49,308 nucleotides of DNA from Chloroflexota bacterium (GCA_016875735.1 VGOW01000024.1:1-49308), one strand, 5' to 3'. Shown: positions 27,527 to 38,757, counted from the first letter of the stretch. Numbers and translations: made by a program. Notes: a model not told the origin generated them from the letters alone.

Positions 27527-28858
27527 TCATAGATCGCTGGTGTAGTTGAGGGCTTTGCCCTCGAACGCATTCACACTTTCGATCAGTAGCGCCTGAGTTG
27601 CGCCGAAGTGCGCGAGCAGAGCCTCGCGCACTTCGCTTTCCTCTGCGCCCGCACTGCGCCAACGCAGCCGCAGTGAGCCATCGGCAAATTGATGCAAATT
27701 GAATTGCGCGATAGCCAAAGGCCGAAGCGCAATGGAGATGTCAATGTTGTTGAGCGGGCGGCCATCGGCGGCGCGGAAGACGACCGGCGCGCGGCCTTCG
27801 AGTCCGATCAGCGCGGGTTGGCCGCCGATGATTTCGAGCGCGGCGTGATCGCCGGTGCGATAGCGGAGCAATGGCAGAAACGGATTGAAACCGCCACTCA
27901 AGACGATCTCGCCGCGCGCGCCGGGCGGAGTCGGCGCCCCATCGGGATCGAGGATTTCGATGTAGAGGCGCGGCTGCAACGGGATCCATCGATCCCCTGT
28001 GGGAGCCGCCACTGCAATCGGCCCGGATTCATTCATCGAATACAGATCGAGCGCGGGGCAATCGAAGCGCGTTTCGAGTTGGGCGCGCAGGCCGGGGGTG
28101 AGAACCATCGCCGTTGAGACGAGCGCTTTGGGCCGCGCAGTGATGGGCAGGCGCGCAAGTTCGGCGAATGAGATCGGGTCGCCGGTGTAGATTTCGGGAT
28201 CGAGGTCGTCGAGGAACTTGGCGCGATCGCCGGCCTCGCGCCACTCGGCGGGGTTGAGGTTGAGTTTGACGAAGCCCGCTTGATCGAGCGCGGGCATGAC
28301 GGCGGCGTAAGTGTACGTTTGCTTTTGATCGCACACGAGGGCGATGGCGATTCGATCCGGCCCGCCTTCGAGAGCCACGTTTCGCGCGGCGAGCGCGGCG
28401 CGCAAGAGTGGAATGTACAGCGCGAGTGTGTCGGGATGAGTGAGAATGCTGAGGGGGTGGCCGGTGACGCCGGAAGTGTTGTAGATGATCAGATCGTCGA
28501 GCGGCTGAGTGTCGGGGACGAATGACCACGGCTCGCGGTTGAGATCGGAGCGGTCGGTGGTGGGGAGATCGGTAAAGCGCGGCGGAGGCGGCCCCCAACG
28601 GCGATAGAGGGGCACGTGGCGAAAACAGTGAGCAACAAATTCGGCCAACCAGTCCGGCGGTCTTTCATGCTCCCATCGCGGCGGCGATGAGTCGAGCGCG
28701 GCGGCAAAGTCGGCGGCGCGGCGCAAGCCAGCGGGCGTGAGGCGGTTGAATCCGCGATGGGTGTATCGCGGCGCGCGGGGATGCTCTTCGAGCCGCAACA
28801 GCAAACGCCGGCCGCGCTCGTCGATCAGCGGAAAGCGATGGTGAAGATCGTCGGTCAT
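27527..28858 (-). CDS. PaaK-like adenylate-forming enzyme, copy A
   Basis: A 443-residue member of the ANL superfamily nearest to phenylacetate-CoA ligases. The ATP loop reads YNTSGVTGHPLSI, the A5 region YSMNESGPIA and the A7/A8 region LLRYRTGDHAAL. The catalytic A10 lysine is in FEGKALNYTSDL at the very end, so the C-terminal lid is short. It should activate a carboxylic acid as acyl-AMP, but the acid and acceptor are unknown. The ATG overlaps the stop of the frameshifted partner gene (ATGA). Copy B at 30948-32303 is clearly homologous along its whole length. Confidence 0.82.
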   Translation of the reverse strand: MTDDLHHRFPLIDERGRRLLLRLEEHPRAPRYTHRGFNRLTPAGLRRAADFAAALDSSPPRWEHERPPDWLAEFVAHCFRHVPLYRRWGPPPPRFTDLPTTDRSDLNREPWSFVPDTQPLDDLIIYNTSGVTGHPLSILTHPDTLALYIPLLRAALAARNVALEGGPDRIAIALVCDQKQTYTYAAVMPALDQAGFVKLNLNPAEWREAGDRAKFLDDLDPEIYTGDPISFAELARLPITARPKALVSTAMVLTPGLRAQLETRFDCPALDLYSMNESGPIAVAAPTGDRWIPLQPRLYIEILDPDGAPTPPGARGEIVLSGGFNPFLPLLRYRTGDHAALEIIGGQPALIGLEGRAPVVFRAADGRPLNNIDISIALRPLAIAQFNLHQFADGSLRLRWRSAGAEESEVREALLAHFGATQALLIESVNAFEGKALNYTSDL

Positions 28859-29404
28859 TCGCGCATCGCTTTCATTTCGGCTTGGCGCGCGGCCTCTTCG
28901 GCCATTTTGCGCCGTATCTCGCTGGCGCGGGCTTCGGCTTCGCGCGCGGCGCGGATCACGCGCTGGCGTTCGGCGCTGTTCAGCGTAGCGAGTCGATCCT
29001 GCGCCTGCGCTTCGGTTTCGCCCGCCGGGCGCAGGCCGAGCGCTCTGAAGCAGAGGCGCGCAATCTCTTCGCGGCGGTCGGCGTCGGCGATGAACTTCTC
29101 GGCTTGGGCGAGGCTCGCCAATTCGGCCAGATCGTTTCGCAGAAAGTTGAGAGCGCGCGTCGTGCAGAAGCCAGCAGGCAATGAGCGTGAGACGCAGTCG
29201 GTTGCGGTCGCGTTTCGAGTCTCGCGAGACGAAAGACGCGAGTTGATCGAGAGTCGGCACACCGCCGAGATCGCGCAGAAGATCGGCGACGACGGCGGCC
29301 ACGATCACCGCGCCGGCCGGGCCGATGCGCGGCTCGGCCAAAAAATCGGCGGGGCATTCGGCCAGTCGGCGGGTGAGCGATTCGAGGGGCGGGCCTTCGT
29401 TCAT
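28855..29404 (-). pseudogene. Unknown ~196-residue protein, copy A, frameshifted
   Basis: The start MNEGPPLESLTRRLAECPAD and the frame up to LIACWLLHDAR match the intact copy at 32381-32968. The homologous continuation ALNFLRNDLAELA, KFIADADRREEIARLCFRAL and AQAQDRLATLNSAERQR lies in another frame. The switch is at a gcgcgc run at about 29153-29160, where adding one gc pair would restore the frame. The C-terminal half is highly charged and probably helical. The start overlaps the radical SAM stop, and the end overlaps ligase A (both ATGA). It is either a real frameshift or a sequencing error. Confidence 0.75.
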
Positions 29405-30411
29405 TTCGCAGTTTCGCAGTGCGCGAACTTGCCGAACACTTGCGTGCTGGGGCAATCGAAACACGGCGCAAGCATCGCGCGCCGACTCGCGGCGAATCGT
29501 TCCGGCAGGCGATGCACATCATCGGCGGTGCGCAGTTCGTCGAGAGGCGCGCCGTAGCCCTCCACAGTATAACTGCACGGCGAAACCATGCCGCGCTCAT
29601 CCACGAACAAAAATGTTTGCCCGGGCCGGCAATCGGCAACGGGCAACGCCTCCCCGCGCGCAAACGCTTCGAGGCGATCCAAGTATCGCTCACTGCCGAG
29701 TATCGTCAGCCCCAATCGCGCCATGCGCTCGCGCACACCCGGCAGCGATTGGCGAAACTGCGCGACGTCTTCGGGGCGCAGGCAATGCTCCGCGTAAAAC
29801 TCCGGGCGGTCGCGCCCACCGAGCGCGTTGAAGGTCAGTTCGTCGGCGCCCCACCCGGCCACCGCCCGGCACAGCGATTCAAAATCATGGATGTTATCGC
29901 GCATCAGTATTGTATTGACTCGGAGGCGCGGGCTGCGTCCGCGTTCGAGTTTCAACTCGCCAAGTCGCCGAACGTTTTTCTCAAGTTGGGCATACAGCCC
30001 CGTCGTTCGCCGCCACCGATCGTGCCCCGGCCCCACCCCATCAACGCTCACCGTCAACGGATCGAAATCCTCCGCCACACACCGCCGAACGGACTCCGAC
30101 TCGAGCGCGGTTCCGTTCGTCGTCGCGCTCACTCTCAACCCAAACTCGACTCGGAAAACGCGAGAGACATCGAACGCCGGCTTCCATCGCAGAGGCTCGC
30201 CGCCCAGCCAACTCACCAGCACTGCGCGCCCGAACTTCGCCGAATAGTCGCCCAACACCGCGCCGAAGCGCAGAACATCGTCGGGGTTGGCCACTGCGCG
30301 CGAACGCGGAAGCATTCGGCTGTACGCGCAAAAGTCACAACCCAGATCGCAAACTTCGGTAACACGCCAAACGACGATGAGCAAGGGGTAACTCCAAGTT
30401 CCAAACTTCAA
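29401..30411 (-). CDS. Radical SAM enzyme with SPASM-like C-terminus
   Basis: A 336-residue iron-sulfur enzyme. The SAM cluster motif is C21-x3-C25-x2-C28 (CDLGCDFC), followed by SWLGGEPL and TTNGTALE of the TIM barrel. The C-terminal cysteines (CRPGQTFLFVDERGMVSPC, CFDCPSTQVFGKFAHC) suggest auxiliary clusters as in SPASM/twitch proteins, which modify peptides or small metabolites. No ATG start exists. TTG at 30411 falls inside a tandem repeat, and TTG at 30384 (before LIVVWRVTEVC) is an alternative. The stop overlaps the start of the frameshifted gene, so translation is coupled. Confidence 0.85.
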   Translation of the reverse strand: MKFGTWSYPLLIVVWRVTEVCDLGCDFCAYSRMLPRSRAVANPDDVLRFGAVLGDYSAKFGRAVLVSWLGGEPLRWKPAFDVSRVFRVEFGLRVSATTNGTALESESVRRCVAEDFDPLTVSVDGVGPGHDRWRRTTGLYAQLEKNVRRLGELKLERGRSPRLRVNTILMRDNIHDFESLCRAVAGWGADELTFNALGGRDRPEFYAEHCLRPEDVAQFRQSLPGVRERMARLGLTILGSERYLDRLEAFARGEALPVADCRPGQTFLFVDERGMVSPCSYTVEGYGAPLDELRTADDVHRLPERFAASRRAMLAPCFDCPSTQVFGKFAHCETAK

Positions 30412-30470
30412 ATCTCAAACTTCAAATCTCAAACTTCAAATCTCAAACTTCAAATCTCAAACTTCAAAAC
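30391..30470. repeat. 14-base tandem repeat AAACTTCAAATCTC
   Basis: Four perfect units lie at 30403-30416, 30417-30430, 30431-30444 and 30445-30458, with degenerate copies on each side. It separates the truncated NadR-like gene from the radical SAM gene. An inverted relative lies at 32304-32376. Confidence 0.92.
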
Positions 30471-30471
30471 G

Positions 30472-30951
30472 TCAAAGGTTGAGGGGCGAGTTGGAATTGC
30501 TGAAGTAGGTTCGCACGAGGGGCGGCAGGAATTCGGAATGCCGCGCTGGATCGGCGCGGACGGCTGTGCCGGAGACGGGAAACCTGTCGCGGTTGAGATC
30601 AACGCAGAGGTGCTTTGCGCCGAGCAGCCGCGCAAACTCATCGCCGTAAGTTTCGGAGGTGAACACGAAATCAATGACCGGGCAGTGGCAGCGAATGATC
30701 GGAAGCCACAGACTCCAATAGTCGGGATGCTCGCTGGGGTACTGCGGCAGTTCTTCGGCGCAGTGTTGAATGTCGAGATCGGGATACAACTGGCACAGCC
30801 AGCGGTAACGAACTTCGCCGGGGATGGGCTGACTGCGGACGGAGCAGAGGAGCACGGTGAGGCGATCGACTCGCGCTCGCGCGGACTCGATGAGGTGCAT
30901 GTGCCCGCGATGGAGGGGCATGAATTTGCCCCAGAGGAAGCCGGTGGTCAT
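30472..30951 (-). CDS. NadR-like nucleotidyltransferase domain, kinase half missing
   Basis: A 159-residue protein matching the NMN adenylyltransferase domain of NadR. GKFMPLHRGHMHLIESA holds the HxGH ATP motif (H14-RG-H17). SETYGDEFARLLGAKHLCVD and FPVSGTAVRADPARH carry the GTxxR signature. In NadR a ribosylnicotinamide kinase domain follows the PPLVRTYF segment. Here the frame stops eight codons later, exactly where a 14-base tandem repeat begins, so the gene may be truncated. Either it now adenylates another substrate or it is decaying. Its ATG overlaps the ligase B stop (ATGA). Confidence 0.8.
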   Translation of the reverse strand: MTTGFLWGKFMPLHRGHMHLIESARARVDRLTVLLCSVRSQPIPGEVRYRWLCQLYPDLDIQHCAEELPQYPSEHPDYWSLWLPIIRCHCPVIDFVFTSETYGDEFARLLGAKHLCVDLNRDRFPVSGTAVRADPARHSEFLPPLVRTYFSNSNSPLNL

Positions 30952-32303
30952 GGGTTAGGTGGTTGGGTGGTTGGGGAGAGGTCGGTGGTGTAGTTGAGGG
31001 TTTTGTCGCCGAAGGAGTCAACGTGTTCGATGGTGAGTGTTTGTGTTACGCCGAAGAGGGGTGTGAGGGCGGCGCGCAGTTGCGAGTCGTCGGCGGCTGC
31101 GCCGTTACGGAGTCGGAGATGCAGTGCGCCATCGGCGAATTGATGGAGGGCGAATTGCGGGAGGGCAAAAGGTTTGAGCGCGGCGGTCACATCGAGGGTG
31201 CTGATGGCGTGACCGTCGGCGGAGCGGAAGAGGACGGGGCGGCGGCCTTCGAGGCCGATGAGCACAGGCTGATCGCCGCGATAGTCGAGCGCGGCGAAGT
31301 CGTTGGTTCGGTAACGGAGGAGTGGAAGAAACGGATTGAAGCCGCCGGTGAGAGTTACTTCGCCTCGACGCCCTATGGGGCAGGGGTTGCCATCAGAATC
31401 AAGTATCTCAACAAAGAGGCCGGGCTGGAGCAGAGTCCAAGTTTCCATATCGGGATCACGGACGGCAACGGGGCCGGTTTCGTTCATCGAATAAACATCG
31501 ACGACGGGACAACCGAAGTGCGATTCGAGTCGGCGGCGAAGTTCGGGCAGGAGCATCATGGCGGTTGAGATGAGCGCGCGCGGGCGCGAGCGCAGTGGGA
31601 GTTGCAGGAGTTCGGCGAAGGCGATGGGATCGCCGGTGTAGATTTCGGGGTTGCAGTCGTCGAGGAAGGGGGCGCGGTCGTCGGGACGCCGCCAGTCGTC
31701 GGGATGCAGGTTGAGTTTGATGTGCCCGGCGTCGTTTTGTTGCGGAGTAATCGAGGGATAGGTGTATGCGCGTTTCTGCCAGCCGACGAGGATGCAGGCC
31801 ACTTGCCCCGCGCCGCTGGTGAGTTCGACTTTGTGACGGGTGAGGGCGAGTTTGAGCAACGGGGTGTAGCACGCGCCCGCGACCGGATGGGAGAGGATGG
31901 TGAGCGGGTGGCCGGTGGCGCCCGAAGTGGCGTACCAAATGAGATCGTCGAGCGGCTGCGAGTCGGGAACGAATGACCAGATTTCGCGGCTGAGGTCGGC
32001 GCGAGTGGTGGTGGGGAGGTCGGCGAACTGCAGGGGACGATCGCCATAGCGGCGATAGAAGGGCACGTCGCGGAAACACATTTCGACGAAATCATCGAGC
32101 CAGTGGGGAAGCGCGCCGGGCGGCCATCCGCGCGGCGAGGCGCGCAGTTCGGATTCGAAGGCGCGCACGCGGCGGAGGTAGTCGGCGGTGAGGCGGTTGC
32201 CGCACTGCGCGGTGTACTTCGGCGCGCGCGGGTGTTCGCGCAACCGGCGCAATAGACGGCGACCTTCGTCGGTGAGGAGAGGGAAGCGGTCAGAGTCAGT
32301 CAT
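30948..32303 (-). CDS. PaaK-like adenylate-forming enzyme, copy B
   Basis: A 451-residue relative of copy A. The N-terminal FPLLTDEGRRLLRRLREHPR, the ATP loop YATSGATGHPLTI, A5 YSMNETGPVA, RYRTNDFAAL and A10 lysine FGDKTLNYTTDL can be aligned position by position. RYRTND replaces the usual RYRTGD, a possible loss near the ribose-binding aspartate. It presumably activates a carboxylate with ATP. A 77-base repeat-filled spacer separates it from its partner gene, while copy A overlaps its partner. Its stop overlaps the NadR-like start. Confidence 0.82.
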   Translation of the reverse strand: MTDSDRFPLLTDEGRRLLRRLREHPRAPKYTAQCGNRLTADYLRRVRAFESELRASPRGWPPGALPHWLDDFVEMCFRDVPFYRRYGDRPLQFADLPTTTRADLSREIWSFVPDSQPLDDLIWYATSGATGHPLTILSHPVAGACYTPLLKLALTRHKVELTSGAGQVACILVGWQKRAYTYPSITPQQNDAGHIKLNLHPDDWRRPDDRAPFLDDCNPEIYTGDPIAFAELLQLPLRSRPRALISTAMMLLPELRRRLESHFGCPVVDVYSMNETGPVAVRDPDMETWTLLQPGLFVEILDSDGNPCPIGRRGEVTLTGGFNPFLPLLRYRTNDFAALDYRGDQPVLIGLEGRRPVLFRSADGHAISTLDVTAALKPFALPQFALHQFADGALHLRLRNGAAADDSQLRAALTPLFGVTQTLTIEHVDSFGDKTLNYTTDLSPTTQPPNP

Positions 32304-32380
32304 AGGTTAACTTCAAACCACAAATTTCAAATTCCAAGCTTCAAATTTGGGAGTTTGAGATTTGAAGTTTGGAGTTCTTC
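32304..32380. repeat. Inverted relatives of the AAACTTCAAATCTC repeat
   Basis: The sequence caaatttcaaattccaagct and the mirror gtttgagatttgaagtttgg can fold back. Together with 30391-30470 it brackets the ligase B/NadR-like pair in opposite orientation. Confidence 0.75.
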
Positions 32381-32968
32381 TCACTCTCTGCCCCATTTAT
32401 CCGCCGCCTCTTCGGCGGCTTTGCGGGCCATCGCTTCGCGGATTTGCTGAGCGCGGGCTTCGGCTTCGCGCGCGGCGCGGATCACGCGCTGGCGTTCGGC
32501 GGTGTTGAGGGTGGCGAGTCGATCCTGCGCTTGCGCTTCGGATTCTCCGGCGGGGCGCAAACCGAGCGCTCCGAGGCAGAGGCGCGCAAGTTCCTCGCGG
32601 CGGTCGGAGTCGGCGATGAATTTGCTCGCCGGAGTCAGTTCGGCGGATTCGTTGAGGCCGGTGGAAAGCAGCCGAAGCGCAGAGTGGGCAAACGCGCGCC
32701 GCTCGCGAAACCACGAATCGTGCAACATCCAGCAGGCGATGAGGATCAGCCGCAAACGGTTGCGATCTTTGTTGCCCTCGCCCGGCTCGAAGGCATCGGC
32801 CTGCGAGGGCGCGAGCGGCCCCCCGCCGAGCTCGACGAGCAGATCGCCGACGACCGCCGCAACGCTCACCCGCCCCTTTTTGCCGATGCGCGGTTCGTCG
32901 AGAAATTCCGGCGGGCACTCGGCCAATCGGCGGGTGAGGGATTCGAGGGGCGGGCCTTCGGCGTTCAT
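32381..32968 (-). CDS. Unknown ~196-residue protein, copy B (intact)
   Basis: Not recognised. The N-terminal half (PPLESLTRRLAECPPEFLDE, VSVAAVVGDLLVELGGG, NRLRLILIACWMLHD) looks globular and helical. The C-terminal half (KFIADSDRREELARLCLGAL then AERQRVIRAAREAEARAQQI) is rich in Arg, Glu and Ala and is probably a long helix or coiled coil. The same gene occurs, frameshifted, before ligase A, so the protein and the ligase form a conserved pair. An ATG at 32980 is possible. I chose 32968 because copy A begins at the same point. Confidence 0.75.
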   Translation of the reverse strand: MNAEGPPLESLTRRLAECPPEFLDEPRIGKKGRVSVAAVVGDLLVELGGGPLAPSQADAFEPGEGNKDRNRLRLILIACWMLHDSWFRERRAFAHSALRLLSTGLNESAELTPASKFIADSDRREELARLCLGALGLRPAGESEAQAQDRLATLNTAERQRVIRAAREAEARAQQIREAMARKAAEEAADKWGRE

Positions 32969-32984
32969 GGCGTCTTTCATCAAC

Positions 32985-33045
32985 GAATTCAGCGGATTGA
33001 ACGGATCATGTTTGAATCAAATCCGCTGAATCCGTTCAATCCGTT
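32985..33045. repeat. TTCAGCGGATTGAACGGAT inverted repeat
   Basis: The sequence ttcagcggattgaacggatc is answered by aatccgctgaatccgttcaa across an atgtttg centre. It forms the 3' end region of the VWA gene. Confidence 0.75.
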
Positions 33046-34784
33046 GACGAATCTTTCTCTCCGTATTTCAATTTGCTGAACCACCGCGCAAATTCTATCA
33101 ACTCATCCCACGTTCGCACGCGGCGCACGTTCCAGCCTTCGCTCTGCGCTCGAACAAGTTCAGGAATCTTCTCGATGTCGTTCCACAGATTCAAGGCCAT
33201 CGTGCCGCCGCCGCGCGCTTTCTCCAACGCCGTCCGCGAAACATCCCAGCCGCTGTTGCCTTTCTCGTCTTTATCGAACATCGTCGTCACGCCGTCGTCG
33301 GAGATGATCAAAATGTGCGCGGGGCGATCCGACGGCTTGCGTTCGGCGAATGTGTCGCGCAAAATGTGAATGGGAAAGGCGGTCGCCCCGGCGATGTATC
33401 CGGTGATGATGGCGAGCAATCGCTTCTCATCGGTGATGAAGCCGCCTGTGGTGTCGAACTGCCCCGCCCCGCTCCACAGCGTGGCCTGCACCCGCGCCCC
33501 CGCGCGCAGAGCCGAGAGAGTCACAATCGTGCCAGCCAGCGCGAGATACGACACGTTCACTTGCGGGTTGGGCATCGAGCCGGAGCAATCGATATACAAA
33601 TCCAAATCGAGCGGCTCGCGTTTCGGAAGCGTCCCCTCTGTTGTGCCATACACGCGCTGAACGGTGGTCATGCCCGGAATGATGCGCGGGCTGATCATCA
33701 CGCTCTCCGTCCAGTCGGCGGCTTCCAGCGGCGAGCCGATGTCCCACGGTTCGAGTCCTTCGGGCAGGGGTTCGGTCGATTCGGGAGTCTCGCGGGCCGG
33801 GAATCGAATCAGGTAGGGAGTCGATCTCTCTTTGTAATATCGGGCAGTGATTTCGTGATCGCTCAAATCGATCCCCATCGCCCGCAAGAGTTGGCCGTAC
33901 TCGAACGGCTCTCGATGCTGGCCGCCGGGGCGTGACGCGCCCGACTCGGTGGGGCGCCGACTCGGATCGCCGGGCTCCTCGTCCAACCCCGACAACTCCG
34001 GATCGAGCGAGGGGTGCATTGCGCCGCCGATCTCGTCGTCGTCGATCTCGGTGAGGCCGGCGGGCGAGCCGTTGCGCCCGGCGTGCTCGGTGTCGCGCCA
34101 GCCTTTGAGCAATTGCTGAATCTGCTCGCCTTCGTTTTCGAGGAGATACGGCAGACACAACGCGGCGAATCGGCCCGAGCCGTCGAGCCAGTCGCGGGCA
34201 TAGGCGCGAACGAGCCGCGCGCCGAGATGGGCGTCGCCCTCGAGTTGCTCGTCAATGGCTCCTTTCGCCAATGTGCCTTTGGTGAGGCTCCACAGAATTT
34301 CATAGATGCGCATGTAAAACGTCCACATGCGATCCGTCGAGTCGGAGCCGATGGTTTTGTACACATCGGCGATCTTGAGGTTAGCGCCGCGCTGAAGGCG
34401 GTCGTTGATCAGCAAGTCGGTGTAAAGGTTGGCGATGAACGGGGCGAGGTGTTCTTTGGTGGGCAGGCCGCGTCTCATGCGGGCGATCATGCGCCCGTGA
34501 TCGGTGAGGTCGGCGGGAGCATACACGTGGTGGCCGATCTCGTGGGCGAGGATTTCGAGGGCGAACGGTTCGAGTTTCTCATCGGCGATCAAGTGCAGGC
34601 CGATGACGACCGATTGATCGTCGAGGCGGATCATGGCGAACGACGTGGCGAGGCCCTCGCGTTTGGCGTCGTCGGGCGAGAAGCACCACAGCGGGTCGCG
34701 CAGTTTGGTGAACTTGCTCCAGATGGCGAGGGCGGCGGGCCAGTGGGCTTGCCATTGCTCGCGGAGATGGGTGATGGTTGGCAT
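33036..34784 (-). CDS. HExxH metallopeptidase-like plus von Willebrand A protein
   Basis: A 582-residue two-part protein. The N-terminal region has LAHEIGHHVYAP (H81, E82, H85), a zinc-peptidase-like motif. An acidic, low-complexity middle follows (about 240-290). The C-terminal VWA domain has a MIDAS motif in DLYIDCSGSMPNP (about 395-407). This layout resembles DUF2201-type proteins, which pair with MoxR ATPases. Such pairs act as chaperone-like or activation machines. The MoxR gene lies 2.3 kb upstream on the same strand. The frame is open to 34808, but those codons belong to a repeat, so I start at the ATG at 34784. Confidence 0.82.
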   Translation of the reverse strand: MPTITHLREQWQAHWPAALAIWSKFTKLRDPLWCFSPDDAKREGLATSFAMIRLDDQSVVIGLHLIADEKLEPFALEILAHEIGHHVYAPADLTDHGRMIARMRRGLPTKEHLAPFIANLYTDLLINDRLQRGANLKIADVYKTIGSDSTDRMWTFYMRIYEILWSLTKGTLAKGAIDEQLEGDAHLGARLVRAYARDWLDGSGRFAALCLPYLLENEGEQIQQLLKGWRDTEHAGRNGSPAGLTEIDDDEIGGAMHPSLDPELSGLDEEPGDPSRRPTESGASRPGGQHREPFEYGQLLRAMGIDLSDHEITARYYKERSTPYLIRFPARETPESTEPLPEGLEPWDIGSPLEAADWTESVMISPRIIPGMTTVQRVYGTTEGTLPKREPLDLDLYIDCSGSMPNPQVNVSYLALAGTIVTLSALRAGARVQATLWSGAGQFDTTGGFITDEKRLLAIITGYIAGATAFPIHILRDTFAERKPSDRPAHILIISDDGVTTMFDKDEKGNSGWDVSRTALEKARGGGTMALNLWNDIEKIPELVRAQSEGWNVRRVRTWDELIEFARWFSKLKYGEKDSSTD

Positions 34785-34826
34785 GAGATCAGTTTTATCA
34801 GCGTTCATCTGCGTTCCAACTCGCGA
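34785..34826. repeat. ATCAGCGTTCATCTGCGTTCC element
   Basis: The gap between the racemase-family gene and the VWA gene holds atcagcgttcatctgcgttc, the same family as 35905-36003 and 42537-42565. Confidence 0.6.
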
Positions 34827-35879
34827 TCACCAGATGTCGCCGACGGTGAAGCCGTTGGGGAAAGGGTCTTCAGGATCGAGGACGTATTGGGCGATGCCAG
34901 TGATCCACGCTGTGCCGCTGAGGGTGGGCGCGACGGCTCTGTGCGGGCCGACTCGAGTCTCTTCGACGAGGCGGCCAGTGAAGATCGTGCCCAAGATTCC
35001 TTCGTGCCGAAAATCTTGCTGCAGGCCAAGCTGGCCTTTGGCATACAGAGTCGCCATCTTGGCGCATGTGCCTGTGCCGCATGGGGAACGATCGAGCGCG
35101 CCCGTCCACGTAGCGGGCTTGTTCCAATCGAGTTTGCCGGTGGCGATGGTGACGGCGTTTTTGCGGTGGGCATCCGGGCGCGACGGGGGGCCGGAAAGCT
35201 GGGCGATGGTGGGGCCGACGATCTCCGGGTTCTGCGGGTGAACGACGGGCAATTGCTCTTGCGTTGCGGCATTGATCATCGCGCTGATGCGGGTGATGTC
35301 GCGGCCTTCGTCGGGCGTGAGGCGCAGGCCAAACGGCGCGGCGTCGGCGATGACGAAAAACATGCCGCCCCAAGCCACGTCCACAGCCACGGTTCCCAAC
35401 TGCGGCACTTCGACTTTGGCATCGAGATGAACGGCGAAGGCCGGAACGTTTCGGAAGGTCACTTGAGTCACTTTGCCGTTGCGGCACTCGGCGCGCACCG
35501 AAATGAGTCCGGCGGGGGTGTCGAGGTTGAGATCGGTGACGGGCTCCTTCATGGGCAACATGCCGGTTTCGAGAAGCGCCGTCACGGTGCAGATGGTGTT
35601 CGAGCCCGACATGGGCGGATATTCGACCTGCTCCATGATGATGAATCCGGCGTCGCAATCGGGGCGAGTGGGCGGCAGGATGAGATTGCAGCAGGCGGGA
35701 GGATAGCCGCGCGGCTCGCGCAACATGCGCAGGCGGATGTGATCGTGGTGCTGTTCGAAGTGTTTCATCTTCTCGAACATTGTTCTGCCGGGCACGTCGA
35801 GCACGCCGCCGGTGATGACGCGGCCATGTTCGCCGCAGGCGTGCAGGTCAACGGCGGTGATCATGTGGGTGAAACGCAT
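34827..35879 (-). CDS. Proline racemase-family enzyme, Ser/Cys type (hydroxyproline epimerase or dehydratase)
   Basis: A 350-residue enzyme of the proline racemase fold. The first catalytic position, cysteine in racemases (MCGH), is serine here: S91 in PPMSGSNTICT. The second cysteine is kept, C267 in DRSPCGTGTCAKMA. In this family the pair at these positions separates proline racemase and 4-hydroxyproline epimerase (Cys/Cys) from 3-hydroxyproline dehydratases (Thr/Cys). Ser/Cys members have mixed hydroxyproline activities. No hydroxyproline catabolic genes are adjacent. The ATG at 35879 has aggagc seven bases upstream. It sits inside the MoxR/VWA block, which may be coincidental. Confidence 0.88.
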   Translation of the reverse strand: MRFTHMITAVDLHACGEHGRVITGGVLDVPGRTMFEKMKHFEQHHDHIRLRMLREPRGYPPACCNLILPPTRPDCDAGFIIMEQVEYPPMSGSNTICTVTALLETGMLPMKEPVTDLNLDTPAGLISVRAECRNGKVTQVTFRNVPAFAVHLDAKVEVPQLGTVAVDVAWGGMFFVIADAAPFGLRLTPDEGRDITRISAMINAATQEQLPVVHPQNPEIVGPTIAQLSGPPSRPDAHRKNAVTIATGKLDWNKPATWTGALDRSPCGTGTCAKMATLYAKGQLGLQQDFRHEGILGTIFTGRLVEETRVGPHRAVAPTLSGTAWITGIAQYVLDPEDPFPNGFTVGDIW

Positions 35880-35904
35880 GAGGGGCTCCTGTGGGCAATA
35901 GACT

Positions 35905-36003
35905 CGGGGGAACGCAGATGACGCAGATAGGGCGGATGAACGCGGTTTGATTTGAGAAGATAATCTGCGCCCATCCATTTGATCTGCGTTATCCGCGTTC
36001 CGA
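35905..36003. repeat. AACGCAGATGACGCAGATAG / GATCTGCGTTATCCGCGTTC inverted repeat
   Basis: Two oppositely oriented arms with gataatctgcgcccatcc between. The element spans the gap between the unknown 339-residue gene and the racemase-family gene and runs into the 3' end of the former. Confidence 0.8.
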
Positions 36004-37008
36004 ATCCGTTGCCGCGATCAAATGCACGGAGTGCGAGTGGGGGATGGTGACGGCCAGTGTGGTTTCGTTGGCGGCGGCGCTGGTGTATTGGGTGAGTTCG
36101 GGAAACTGCTGCTTACCGTTTGGCCCGCTCACTTCGCCGGAACGATGGATGGTGAACGGTGATTTTGTTTTGCCGGTCGAGGGTTGAGCGTCGGTGCGGT
36201 GAAAGGTTGCGCCGAAGGCGTCGGCGGTGAGCAGCCACGATCCTTCGCCGTCGGTGACGATGAAGTGATCGCCAGAGGTGAAGACGAGCGGCGGGGCGAT
36301 GAAGAGTCCGCCGAAGCCGCGAAAGGCGCCGAGGCGGGCGACGATGCCAAGTTCGGGCGTGGAGCGTGAAGGGTGGAGCGTGGGGCGATGCCACGGGTGG
36401 GCGCGGAGGCGGCGAAGGACGGAGTCGAGGGGTTGGGATGAATCGGCGGGGAAGCCGAGAGTGAGGCGAGCCACTGCGGGGGGTAACGTTTCGCAGAGGT
36501 CGAGGGCGGCGGCGCGGTAATGGGCCAGTCCCGATTTCCAAGAAAGTATTTGACCAACTTTGAGGAGGGTTTCGGAGTCGGGGCAATGATCGGCGAGGGC
36601 GAGCATGTCGCGCATCCATTCGCCGGGGCGGGCGCCGGGCGTGGTGGAGATGTTGTAGAGGGCGTTGGTGATTGCGCCGACGATGGCGCGCGGGTCGGCG
36701 GCGATGTGGCGGGCGAATTTGGGGAGGAGGTGCGCCCAGCCGGAGGCAATGAGGGGGTGGCGCGAACGCGGACCGAGAAAATCTTGGGCGAGGAGGTCGA
36801 GGGTGAGATCGTAGAGGGCGTCGGTGGCGGCGAAGGTTTGATCGGGGGCGAGGGCGTGAACGGCTTCGACGATGGGGGCGACGAGGCCACGGAGGAGATC
36901 GGCGAAGGCATCGCCGTCGAGCGCAGGCTTATAGTGGCGCGCCGCGGCAAATTTGCTGTTGAAGCGTTCGCGGTTGGCGGCGAGAGTGGAGGCGAGAGCG
37001 TTGGGCAT
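35989..37008 (-). CDS. Unknown 339-residue protein in the MoxR/VWA block
   Basis: I do not recognise it. The N-terminal two-thirds is helical and Ala/Leu-rich (DAFADLLRGLVAPIVEAVHA, GWAHLLPKFARHIAADPRA), possibly a repeat scaffold. From about residue 215 the sequence turns beta-rich, with glycines and short hydrophobic strands (LVFTSGDHFIVTDGEGSWLL, TLAVTIPHSHSVHLIA). No signal peptide or membrane segment is visible. It lies between the MoxR ATPase and the VWA protein, 109 bases after the former, so a substrate or adaptor role is a reasonable guess. The spacer on each side is repeat DNA. Confidence 0.7.
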   Translation of the reverse strand: MPNALASTLAANRERFNSKFAAARHYKPALDGDAFADLLRGLVAPIVEAVHALAPDQTFAATDALYDLTLDLLAQDFLGPRSRHPLIASGWAHLLPKFARHIAADPRAIVGAITNALYNISTTPGARPGEWMRDMLALADHCPDSETLLKVGQILSWKSGLAHYRAAALDLCETLPPAVARLTLGFPADSSQPLDSVLRRLRAHPWHRPTLHPSRSTPELGIVARLGAFRGFGGLFIAPPLVFTSGDHFIVTDGEGSWLLTADAFGATFHRTDAQPSTGKTKSPFTIHRSGEVSGPNGKQQFPELTQYTSAAANETTLAVTIPHSHSVHLIAATDSERG

Positions 37009-37117
37009 GAATTGGGGAACGCGGATGACGTGGATGGAGCGGATTTACGCTGATGCCTCTTGCTTCTGCTGACGAACCGTTTCGAAGTTCATCCGCCCGA
37101 CCCGCGTCATCCGCGCG
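37009..37117. repeat. GAACGCGGATGACGTGGATG / CCGCGTCATCCGCGC element
   Basis: The spacer holds gaacgcggatgacgtggatg, gagcggatttacgctgatg and the mirror arm catccgcccgacccgcgtca. It belongs to the same class as 35905-36003. Confidence 0.65.
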
Positions 37118-38701
37118 CTACTTCGTTACCAGCCACCTCAAATAATTCGTGTATCGCTGGTGCAAATACTTCAACTTCAGCACATCGTCGAAGAGGTGAC
37201 CGTAGAGTTTGCGGCCTTTGCTCCACTCGGCGAGAAGACGTTCGATCTTGACCAGTCGAGCGCGGGCTTCCGATTCGGCGACGCCTTCCAGCCCGGCGGC
37301 AAACTCCGCTTCGAGTTTCGTCAACGGGTCGTCGTTGTCGAGGTTGAGGCGGTCGTATTCGGCGCACGAGAGATCGAACAGTTTGCGAATCCAGCCCACG
37401 CGATCCACGCGAAAGACGGCGTTGCCCGGCGCTTCGAAGAAAGGCGCGTCGGGGTCGGGCGCGAGTTTGTCGTGAAGCACGAAGGGAATGATCTGCCGCA
37501 AGTCGTCGAGTTCCACTTCGCGGTTGCCGTGAAAGTAAGTGAGGGCTTTGGCAAAAATCAGAACAGTCATCAGCGCCCGCACCGAGAGCCCGTTTTTGGT
37601 TTGCGCGCCGAGGTCTTTTAGTTTGTCTTTGCCGGTCTCGCCCGCCGAGAGTTGATGAATATCGGCGCTGGCCAGTTTGGCGGTGTCTTTGGTTTTGTAT
37701 TCGAGTTGATCGGCGGCCGGCTCGAGGAACTCGAACTGCGAGGCAAAGAACTCGAGTCGGCGGCGCAAGCCGGGGGGAACGGCCACGTCGCGGATCTCGT
37801 CGCCCATCCGATCGATTTCAGATTCGGCGAAGATGATGGCGGGCGGCACAACTTCGGCCGGCTCGATGCCCTCTTCGATTCGAGTCAGCAGTTCGTTGAG
37901 GAAGCGGGTGTTGAAATGCAGAGTCTTCACCACGATGTCGATGCGGTCGCGCAGGGCTTCGATGACTTGATAGGTGCCGCCGCCCGCATCGTCGTTGGCG
38001 GTGAGATACCACGCCGACTCGGGGCATTCGAAAATGTGATCGAGCAGTTCGGCGTAGTTGTCGCCCATCACCGTGAGCAGAGCCGACTGCGTGCGCGTGG
38101 GAATGCGGTTGTACTCGTCGATGATCTTCACTCTCATGCCCAGCCACTTGCGCCACGAGATTTTGATCTCGTCCATGCTTTTGGCGTTGACCAGATCGGC
38201 GGGGAGCGGGTTGCCGAGCAGATCGGAGATGGTCATCTGCGGCTGGCCGTGCTGCATTCCGCGCCGCACCTCTTTGAGCGAGTATCCGGCCAGCACGCCC
38301 ATGAGAATGGCGCTCGACGTTTTGCCCCGCCCGGGCCCGCCCACAAGCAAACAGCGGCGGCGCACGGCGAAGTTGAGCAGGGGCATGAGAATGAACGACG
38401 AATAACTCTGCGCCGAGGGCAGAGTCAGTTTCGCTTTCGAGTCGCCAAAGGTGTAACTGTGATGGGGGCCGTCGTTGTATTCGATGTCGTAATGCGGGCT
38501 GATGACGGCGTGGTTGACGATCCAAAAATAGGCTTGGCGCAATTTTTCGTCGAGGGGGATGCCGGAATCGATTCCCCGCGCCGAGTCGGCCACCGGGCCT
38601 CTGTAGAGATCGGCCACGTCGAAGGTTTTGGCTTGCGGCTTGAGGCGCGGATTGGTGGGCGCGACGGAGACGTGCTGGAATGTGGATTTGAGGGAGGGCA
38701 T
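37118..38701 (-). CDS. MoxR-type AAA+ ATPase
   Basis: A 527-residue ATPase. Walker A is GGPGRGKT (121-128), Walker B IIDEYNR (193-199) and sensor 1 lies in WYLTANDDAGG (231-241). The C-terminal part (about 330-527) is helical. MoxR proteins remodel client proteins together with VWA-domain partners, as in RavA/ViaA or NorQ/NorD. A VWA protein with a HExxH motif is encoded downstream on the same strand. The ATG at 38701 follows a ggag site. Fourteen further upstream codons are repeat-derived and rejected. Confidence 0.88.
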   Translation of the reverse strand: MPSLKSTFQHVSVAPTNPRLKPQAKTFDVADLYRGPVADSARGIDSGIPLDEKLRQAYFWIVNHAVISPHYDIEYNDGPHHSYTFGDSKAKLTLPSAQSYSSFILMPLLNFAVRRRCLLVGGPGRGKTSSAILMGVLAGYSLKEVRRGMQHGQPQMTISDLLGNPLPADLVNAKSMDEIKISWRKWLGMRVKIIDEYNRIPTRTQSALLTVMGDNYAELLDHIFECPESAWYLTANDDAGGGTYQVIEALRDRIDIVVKTLHFNTRFLNELLTRIEEGIEPAEVVPPAIIFAESEIDRMGDEIRDVAVPPGLRRRLEFFASQFEFLEPAADQLEYKTKDTAKLASADIHQLSAGETGKDKLKDLGAQTKNGLSVRALMTVLIFAKALTYFHGNREVELDDLRQIIPFVLHDKLAPDPDAPFFEAPGNAVFRVDRVGWIRKLFDLSCAEYDRLNLDNDDPLTKLEAEFAAGLEGVAESEARARLVKIERLLAEWSKGRKLYGHLFDDVLKLKYLHQRYTNYLRWLVTK

Positions 38702-38710
38702 GAGGACTCC

Positions 38711-38757
38711 GGAAATAGCAATTAGTGATTGGCTATTAGCCATTGGCTATTAGCGAG
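38711..38757. repeat. ATTAGTGATTGGCTATTAGCC inverted repeat
   Basis: The sequence caattagtgattggctatta, then gccattggctattagc, lies between the divergent MoxR and FmdE-like genes. Confidence 0.65.

Follow-up and report, generated by a model that had tools for sequence, protein, structure and literature searches.

What does a bacterium do with a small protein and a PaaK-like ligase that it encodes twice, in the same order and on the same strand? The question is raised by a 49,308-nucleotide stretch of Chloroflexota DNA (GCA_016875735.1, VGOW01000024.1:1-49308; hereafter the window, contig C24 of a 4.15 Mb assembly in 150 contigs), in which an earlier note, made from the sequence alone, had singled out positions 27,527-32,968 as a duplicated two-gene module (here S for the small protein and L for the ligase) and had proposed a system made of ligase, helper and radical SAM enzyme. 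Gene calls in the window place both S–L units at the tail end of a cassette of ten genes, all on the minus strand and in one uninterrupted run (27,527-38,743), in the order MoxR AAA+ – X – (proline racemase) – VWA/HExxH – S1 – L1 – NadR – radical SAM – S2 – L2. That MoxR, X, VWA, S and L form one system is well supported by comparison across genomes. The proposed link between S and L stands, but the obligatory MoxR, X and VWA had been missed, and with these partners the picture becomes that of an adenylating enzyme embedded in an AAA+ remodelling system, for which a biosynthetic or protein-modifying role, as first suggested, is possible.

One line of evidence is co-occurrence. The window's class was represented by 298 genomes. 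S homologues were detected in six of these besides the window's own, and S, the cassette MoxR, the VWA protein and full-length L were found in the identical seven (7/298), a coincidence expected for two independent seven-genome sets with a probability of ~2.6e-14 (genome relatedness ignored). X lies beside MoxR in all seven. MoxR in these genomes is 72-76% identical (86% for a fragment at a contig end) and full-length L is 49-59% identical to L1 (100% in the window's own genome), VWA matches at E ≤ 1e-6 are confined to the seven, and unrelated MoxR and PaaK proteins elsewhere reach at most ~38% identity over partial lengths. The genes are spread over four contigs in genome G197 and over two in G185, all of them present, and the dependence of the parts on one another therefore goes beyond physical linkage.

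Gene order is conserved too. Outside the class, S homologues occur in Geobacteraceae, Myxococcota (one metagenome-assembled genome titled Deltaproteobacteria), Oxalobacteraceae and Chitinibacteraceae, as well as in another Anaerolineales metagenome-assembled genome and two more genomes of the class that includes Pseudoduganella. Chloroflexota, Geobacteraceae and Betaproteobacteria all keep the order moxR–X–vwa–(radical SAM)–S–L, and wherever the upstream DNA of a group was readable, all or some of the moxR–X–vwa genes precede S–L, G185 and G197 being the exceptions. Of 18 S genes with readable downstream DNA, 17 have L as the next gene of the cassette (locus L025 is the exception, L026 has an extra open reading frame between the two, and L033 ends at a contig edge). 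The recurrent S–L linkage that the earlier note had set as a check for a neighbourhood search is thus strongly borne out, by these counts and by the co-occurrence of S and a close L in 7/7 genomes, and the opposite outcome, S and L living mostly apart, was not seen. Loci L028 (Geobacteraceae) and L086 hold a fuller operon, moxR–X–vwa–radical SAM–S–L–pnuC–nadR; in L086 the start codons of several cassette genes overlap the stop codons of their neighbours. The gene set is rare (7/298 genomes in the window's class, 3/369 in that of Pseudoduganella and 1/345 in the phylum to which the Geobacteraceae member belongs; the genome at the centre of each search is counted in these figures). We found no match to S in plasmids, phages or IMG/VR, to L in plasmids, or to MoxR in phages, and a mobile-element origin was rejected on the basis of these collections. 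The cassette is, in sum, a compact, scattered and all-or-none gene set shared by unrelated bacteria.

S and X are two conserved families with no consistent Pfam match and no clear relative in the PDB. The AlphaFold model of S (S1 at 32,381-32,968, ~195 residues; homologues 44-65% identical) is predicted to be all-helical (predicted local distance difference test, pLDDT, 89), in agreement with the label "helical" given earlier, and includes a 39-residue C-terminal helix. The protein ends in KAAEEAADKWxRE-COOH, of which the K and the final RE do not vary among the aligned homologues; S2, as read from its sequence, retains them. Searches of Pfam, NCBIfam and PADLOC with S gave no family, only scattered weak Pfam matches of single members, and a fold search gave no PDB relative (Foldseek best E 1.1, VIA Z 3.6). 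Two ideas about the tail were discarded: as a shared degron or tag it was sought in 15 cassette genomes, where S genes alone matched convincingly (next best E=0.004), and a Lys–Trp or similar crosslink made by the radical SAM enzyme was dropped because the Trp is missing from the S2 copies beside that enzyme.

The designation of L as a ligase is confirmed by the Pfam AMP-binding model (PF00501, cut-off 29.9 bits), against which L1 (30,948-32,303, 451 residues) scores 38.9 bits and L2 (27,527-28,858, 443 residues, motifs intact) just misses with 28.5. The protein has the signatures of PaaK-like members of the ANL superfamily (ATP-loop TSGTTG, A5 Y-x-x-x-E, A7 YRTGD and the catalytic Lys), and 15 L homologues keep the ATP-loop (a P-loop with variations), YSMNE, RYRTxD and the C-terminal catalytic lysine (Lys434, invariant). 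Its nearest solved relatives are PaaK enzymes; L1 nevertheless lies outside the PaaK family as modelled (TIGR02155/NF041878; 25.6 bits for NF041878, cut-off 700) and outside the DVU_1553 family (NF045666, 61.8 bits, cut-off 300), which is the closest named ligase model and is matched by all 15 L sequences.

Upstream, the cassette opens with a MoxR-type AAA+ ATPase (37,118-38,743, 541 residues, Pfam AAA_3 and AAA_lid_2) that is 67-76% identical across other classes and phyla, has weak Mg-chelatase similarity, and whose homologues begin ~12 residues downstream of the annotated start. X (35,989-37,008, 339 residues), the core component conserved between MoxR and VWA, had no match in Pfam, including the VMAP, iSTAND and FtsH third components of MoxR–vWA systems. 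Its AlphaFold model (pLDDT 93.6) combines a helical N-terminal part with a small beta-propeller-like C-terminal part, and residues 214-336 show weak partial propeller similarity (Z about 9); beyond these propeller pieces the fold search gave no clear PDB relative, the helical part being barely tested. The VWA protein (33,036-34,808) carries an N-terminal HEIGHH (HExxH) motif, which is invariant in 12 homologues (46-68% identical) together with a MIDAS-type D-x-SGSMP; it is a candidate HExxH metallopeptidase–VWA (DUF2201-like) protein, with no Pfam peptidase match for the HEIGHH domain. Overall, MoxR and a MIDAS vWA protein share one operon, as in the MoxR–vWA ternary systems, and the C-termini and partners of VWA are constant across 12-16 homologues.

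The remaining genes are looser associates, and in the cassettes of the class the radical SAM enzyme and NadR are optional. The radical SAM enzyme (29,401-30,411, 336 residues) was correctly named, with a PF04055 core and an invariant CxxxCxxC. It has SPASM/twitch-like C-terminal cysteines, conserved in 4/5 sequences, and the sole Pfam SPASM match falls below cut-off (L028, 16.8 vs. 21.5 bits). Its gene immediately precedes S in L028, L029 and L086. Its linkage is not obligatory in the class, where 2/7 cassette genomes have a close radical SAM gene. The NadR-like protein (30,472-30,951, 159 residues) matches TIGR01526 with 107 bits over residues 1-152, covering model positions 1-163 only. The name is apt for its nicotinamide mononucleotide (NMN) adenylyltransferase domain and not for the rest of NadR, since the ribosylnicotinamide kinase domain of the two-domain protein is missing. 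Both domains (the nicotinamide riboside, NR, kinase as AAA_28) are present in L028 and L086, next to a PnuC transporter (PF04973, E 1e-45 to 9e-49), and NadR homologues adjoin L in other cassettes too. In Pseudoduganella cassettes only, a zinc-ribbon membrane protein follows NadR (L032 5,182-6,447, L035 12,953-13,996).

The two S–L units are genuine duplicates, in the same order, as the earlier note had it. They are paralogous and lie in tandem, with direct DNA repeats (72-73% identity for L, 86-90% for S) at a constant offset of ~3.45-3.56 kb, and 4-nt ATGA overlaps join L1 to the NadR-like gene, the radical SAM gene to S2, and S2 to L2. The ligases are 58% identical to each other, the S proteins 67%. 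What the note did not report is that S2 (28,855-29,404) does not read as one open frame. Its frame is split by one missing base near GACGCGCGCTCTC, in a GCGCGC run (29,140-29,160), with the 5' half (to ~29,151) and the 3' half (from ~29,157) in different frames, and each half still matches S1 (64-69%), the gene being otherwise intact and conserved. The lesion may be of recent date, an artefact of assembly, or bypassed. A tree of the ligases (support 85-94) has one group made up of L1, the first L029 ligase and the ligase of genome G011, and another made up of L2, the second L029 ligase and a truncated G011 ligase, so that the duplication predates the split of these Chloroflexota. The rSAM–S2–L2 half has decayed twice, by the frameshift in the window and by damage and loss in G011, where S2 is lost and L2 and the end of the radical SAM gene are damaged. 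The G011 remnant (L062 16,158-17,935) encodes a radical SAM protein without its C-terminal cysteines and an L2 that starts at ~residue 158. S1 and S2 are 90% identical over 173 nt of DNA (28,925-29,097 vs. 32,451-32,623), closer than their flanking ligases (~72%), which suggests, from this comparison, that gene conversion between the two S genes is probable.

Two further features of the locus concern none of these subjects. The gene between X and VWA encodes a proline racemase/3-hydroxyproline dehydratase family enzyme (34,827-35,978, PF05544, E=1e-121). This gene, annotated as proline racemase/trans-3-hydroxyproline dehydratase, sits inside the cassette in this genome only, among those read, the cassettes of the other Chloroflexota and of Geobacteraceae, Myxococcota and Betaproteobacteria being without it; it was dropped as a component and is probably a passenger. 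The gaps between NadR and the radical SAM gene (30,390-30,476) and between S1 and L1 (32,309-32,376) hold AT-rich repeats of 14-nt units (AACTTCAAATCTCA), which match dozens of genomic sites in both orientations. They were rejected as functional elements and, being spread over the genome, taken as background.

How might these parts work together? What we observed is which genes the cassettes contain, how they are ordered, that they co-occur and that their motifs are conserved; the reading we favour, tentatively and at somewhat less than an even chance, is that S–L is the chemical unit of a multi-protein system served by a MoxR–VWA remodelling machine, with the radical SAM enzyme and NAD salvage as accessories. 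L would adenylate a carboxylate in an ATP-dependent, AMP-forming reaction, S would be its dedicated partner or acceptor, and MoxR, VWA/HExxH and X would form a machine whose task is to load, activate or reset either the assembly of S and L or the enzyme it produces, gripping S probably through the conserved C-terminal helix. The radical SAM accessory might add its own chemistry, and PnuC and NadR (transporter, NR kinase and NMN adenylyltransferase) could provide the system with its own source of NAD(+) or of a dinucleotide resembling it. That the proteins form a complex, which of them acts on which, what the tail does, the use of NAD and the chemistry itself are inferred. Elsewhere, MoxR–VWA pairs are chaperones or metal-insertion machines, as in NorQD (PMC9976466, PMC13036017) and RavA–ViaA (PMC3893208, PMC10585395), and the cassette resembles NorQ/NorD and RavA/ViaA in having such a pair as a candidate maturation or remodelling machine.

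Several observations weigh against this reading. The window's cassette is without PnuC and a two-domain NadR, having the adenylyltransferase only, and cassette-type NadR is present in 3/7 and missing in 4/7 cassette genomes of the class. The frameshifted S2 of the window and the truncated L2 of G011 also indicate that the second unit is dispensable. It is tempting to speculate further that S is a new helical carrier or adaptor and that the MoxR–VWA machine, S and L build a nucleotide- or NAD-derived group and install it on a target enzyme, the radical SAM protein doing the tailoring, which would amount to a new cofactor or protein-modification pathway; we regard this extension as doubtful.

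The alternative that survives best, unlikely as we judge it, is a pathway to a cofactor that derives from NAD or resembles it, in which the radical SAM enzyme and L would modify a pyridine nucleotide, NadR would make the dinucleotide, and MoxR–VWA would place the product, and perhaps a metal along with it, in a target enzyme. The sharing of one gene run by pnuC–nadR and L, with start/stop overlaps in L086, is consistent with such a pathway, as are the weak Mg-chelatase similarity of MoxR, metal insertion of the NorQD type, which is established, and DVU_1553 as the nearest named ligase model, L1 scoring far below its cut-off. However, NadR and the radical SAM enzyme are optional in the class, and no recurring target enzyme was found in the cassette neighbourhoods. 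Rather improbable is a MoxR–vWA biological-conflict system, acting in immunity or cell death, with S–L or the radical SAM enzyme as effector and NAD metabolism as signal or target. MoxR and VWA with a third component, a stand-alone radical SAM enzyme by a small protein and a patchy distribution do resemble the systems of PMC7159879; those have displaced, hypervariable effectors, but here the components are well conserved and not swapped, and no variable effector fused to or displaced beside vWA was found in 12-16 homologues. The PADLOC search returned a single match, a weak similarity of the radical SAM enzyme to prokaryotic viperin models, no known third-component family was found in X with Pfam, and the phage, plasmid and viral collections searched held none of the queried genes. 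Finally, that L is an ordinary catabolic aryl- or acyl-CoA ligase, tied to MoxR/VWA only by a small transferable island, is very improbable and, among the rivals, fits the co-occurrence worst, for despite its PaaK-like sequence L co-occurs strictly with MoxR, X, VWA and S even when unlinked, no catabolic genes recur beside the cassette, and its PaaK-model bit scores are far under cut-off.

How does the proposed arrangement, S–L served by a MoxR–VWA machine, compare with known systems? We found no paper describing a gene set that contains MoxR together with NadR, PnuC or a PaaK-like ligase (most subscription journals being outside coverage), and the gene set appears to be undescribed. Among the nearest described systems are the MoxR–vWA ternary systems (VMAP, iSTAND, FtsH and beta-propeller classes; Kaur et al., 2020, PMC7159879), which likewise combine a MoxR AAA+ protein, a MIDAS vWA and a third protein in one operon, one subclass including a radical SAM enzyme and a small protein. 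In the cassette, by contrast, X has no Pfam match to a known third component, the partners are constant rather than hypervariable, the vWA protein starts with an HExxH domain and lacks effectors at its C-terminus, and an adenylate-forming ligase, S, PnuC and NadR are added. Also among the nearest, group 2.2 jumbo phages (PMC7824862) have the same arrangement as the cassette, MoxR beside a vWA that has a metallopeptidase domain joined to its N-terminus, and a chaperone function has been proposed for the two. S, L or NAD salvage genes do not appear in the passages found of either paper, and no phage record matched the cassette MoxR or S. PaaK and DVU_1553-family ligases have the ANL motifs in common with L, whereas the cassette L always comes with S and L1 lies far under the family cut-offs. 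As in PnuC–NadR nicotinamide riboside salvage, a transporter and an NMN adenylyltransferase/NR kinase are found in the proteobacterial cassettes, of which the window keeps the adenylyltransferase domain only. We know of no S, L, X or NAD genes in NorQ/NorD or RavA/ViaA. The presence of the cassette in cultured bacteria (Chitinimonas taiwanensis and Pseudoduganella species) makes its function testable. Of the widespread MoxR–VWA machines, only a minority have known clients; the cassette pairs one such machine with an enzyme that could be identified and with a route that supplies NAD by salvage.

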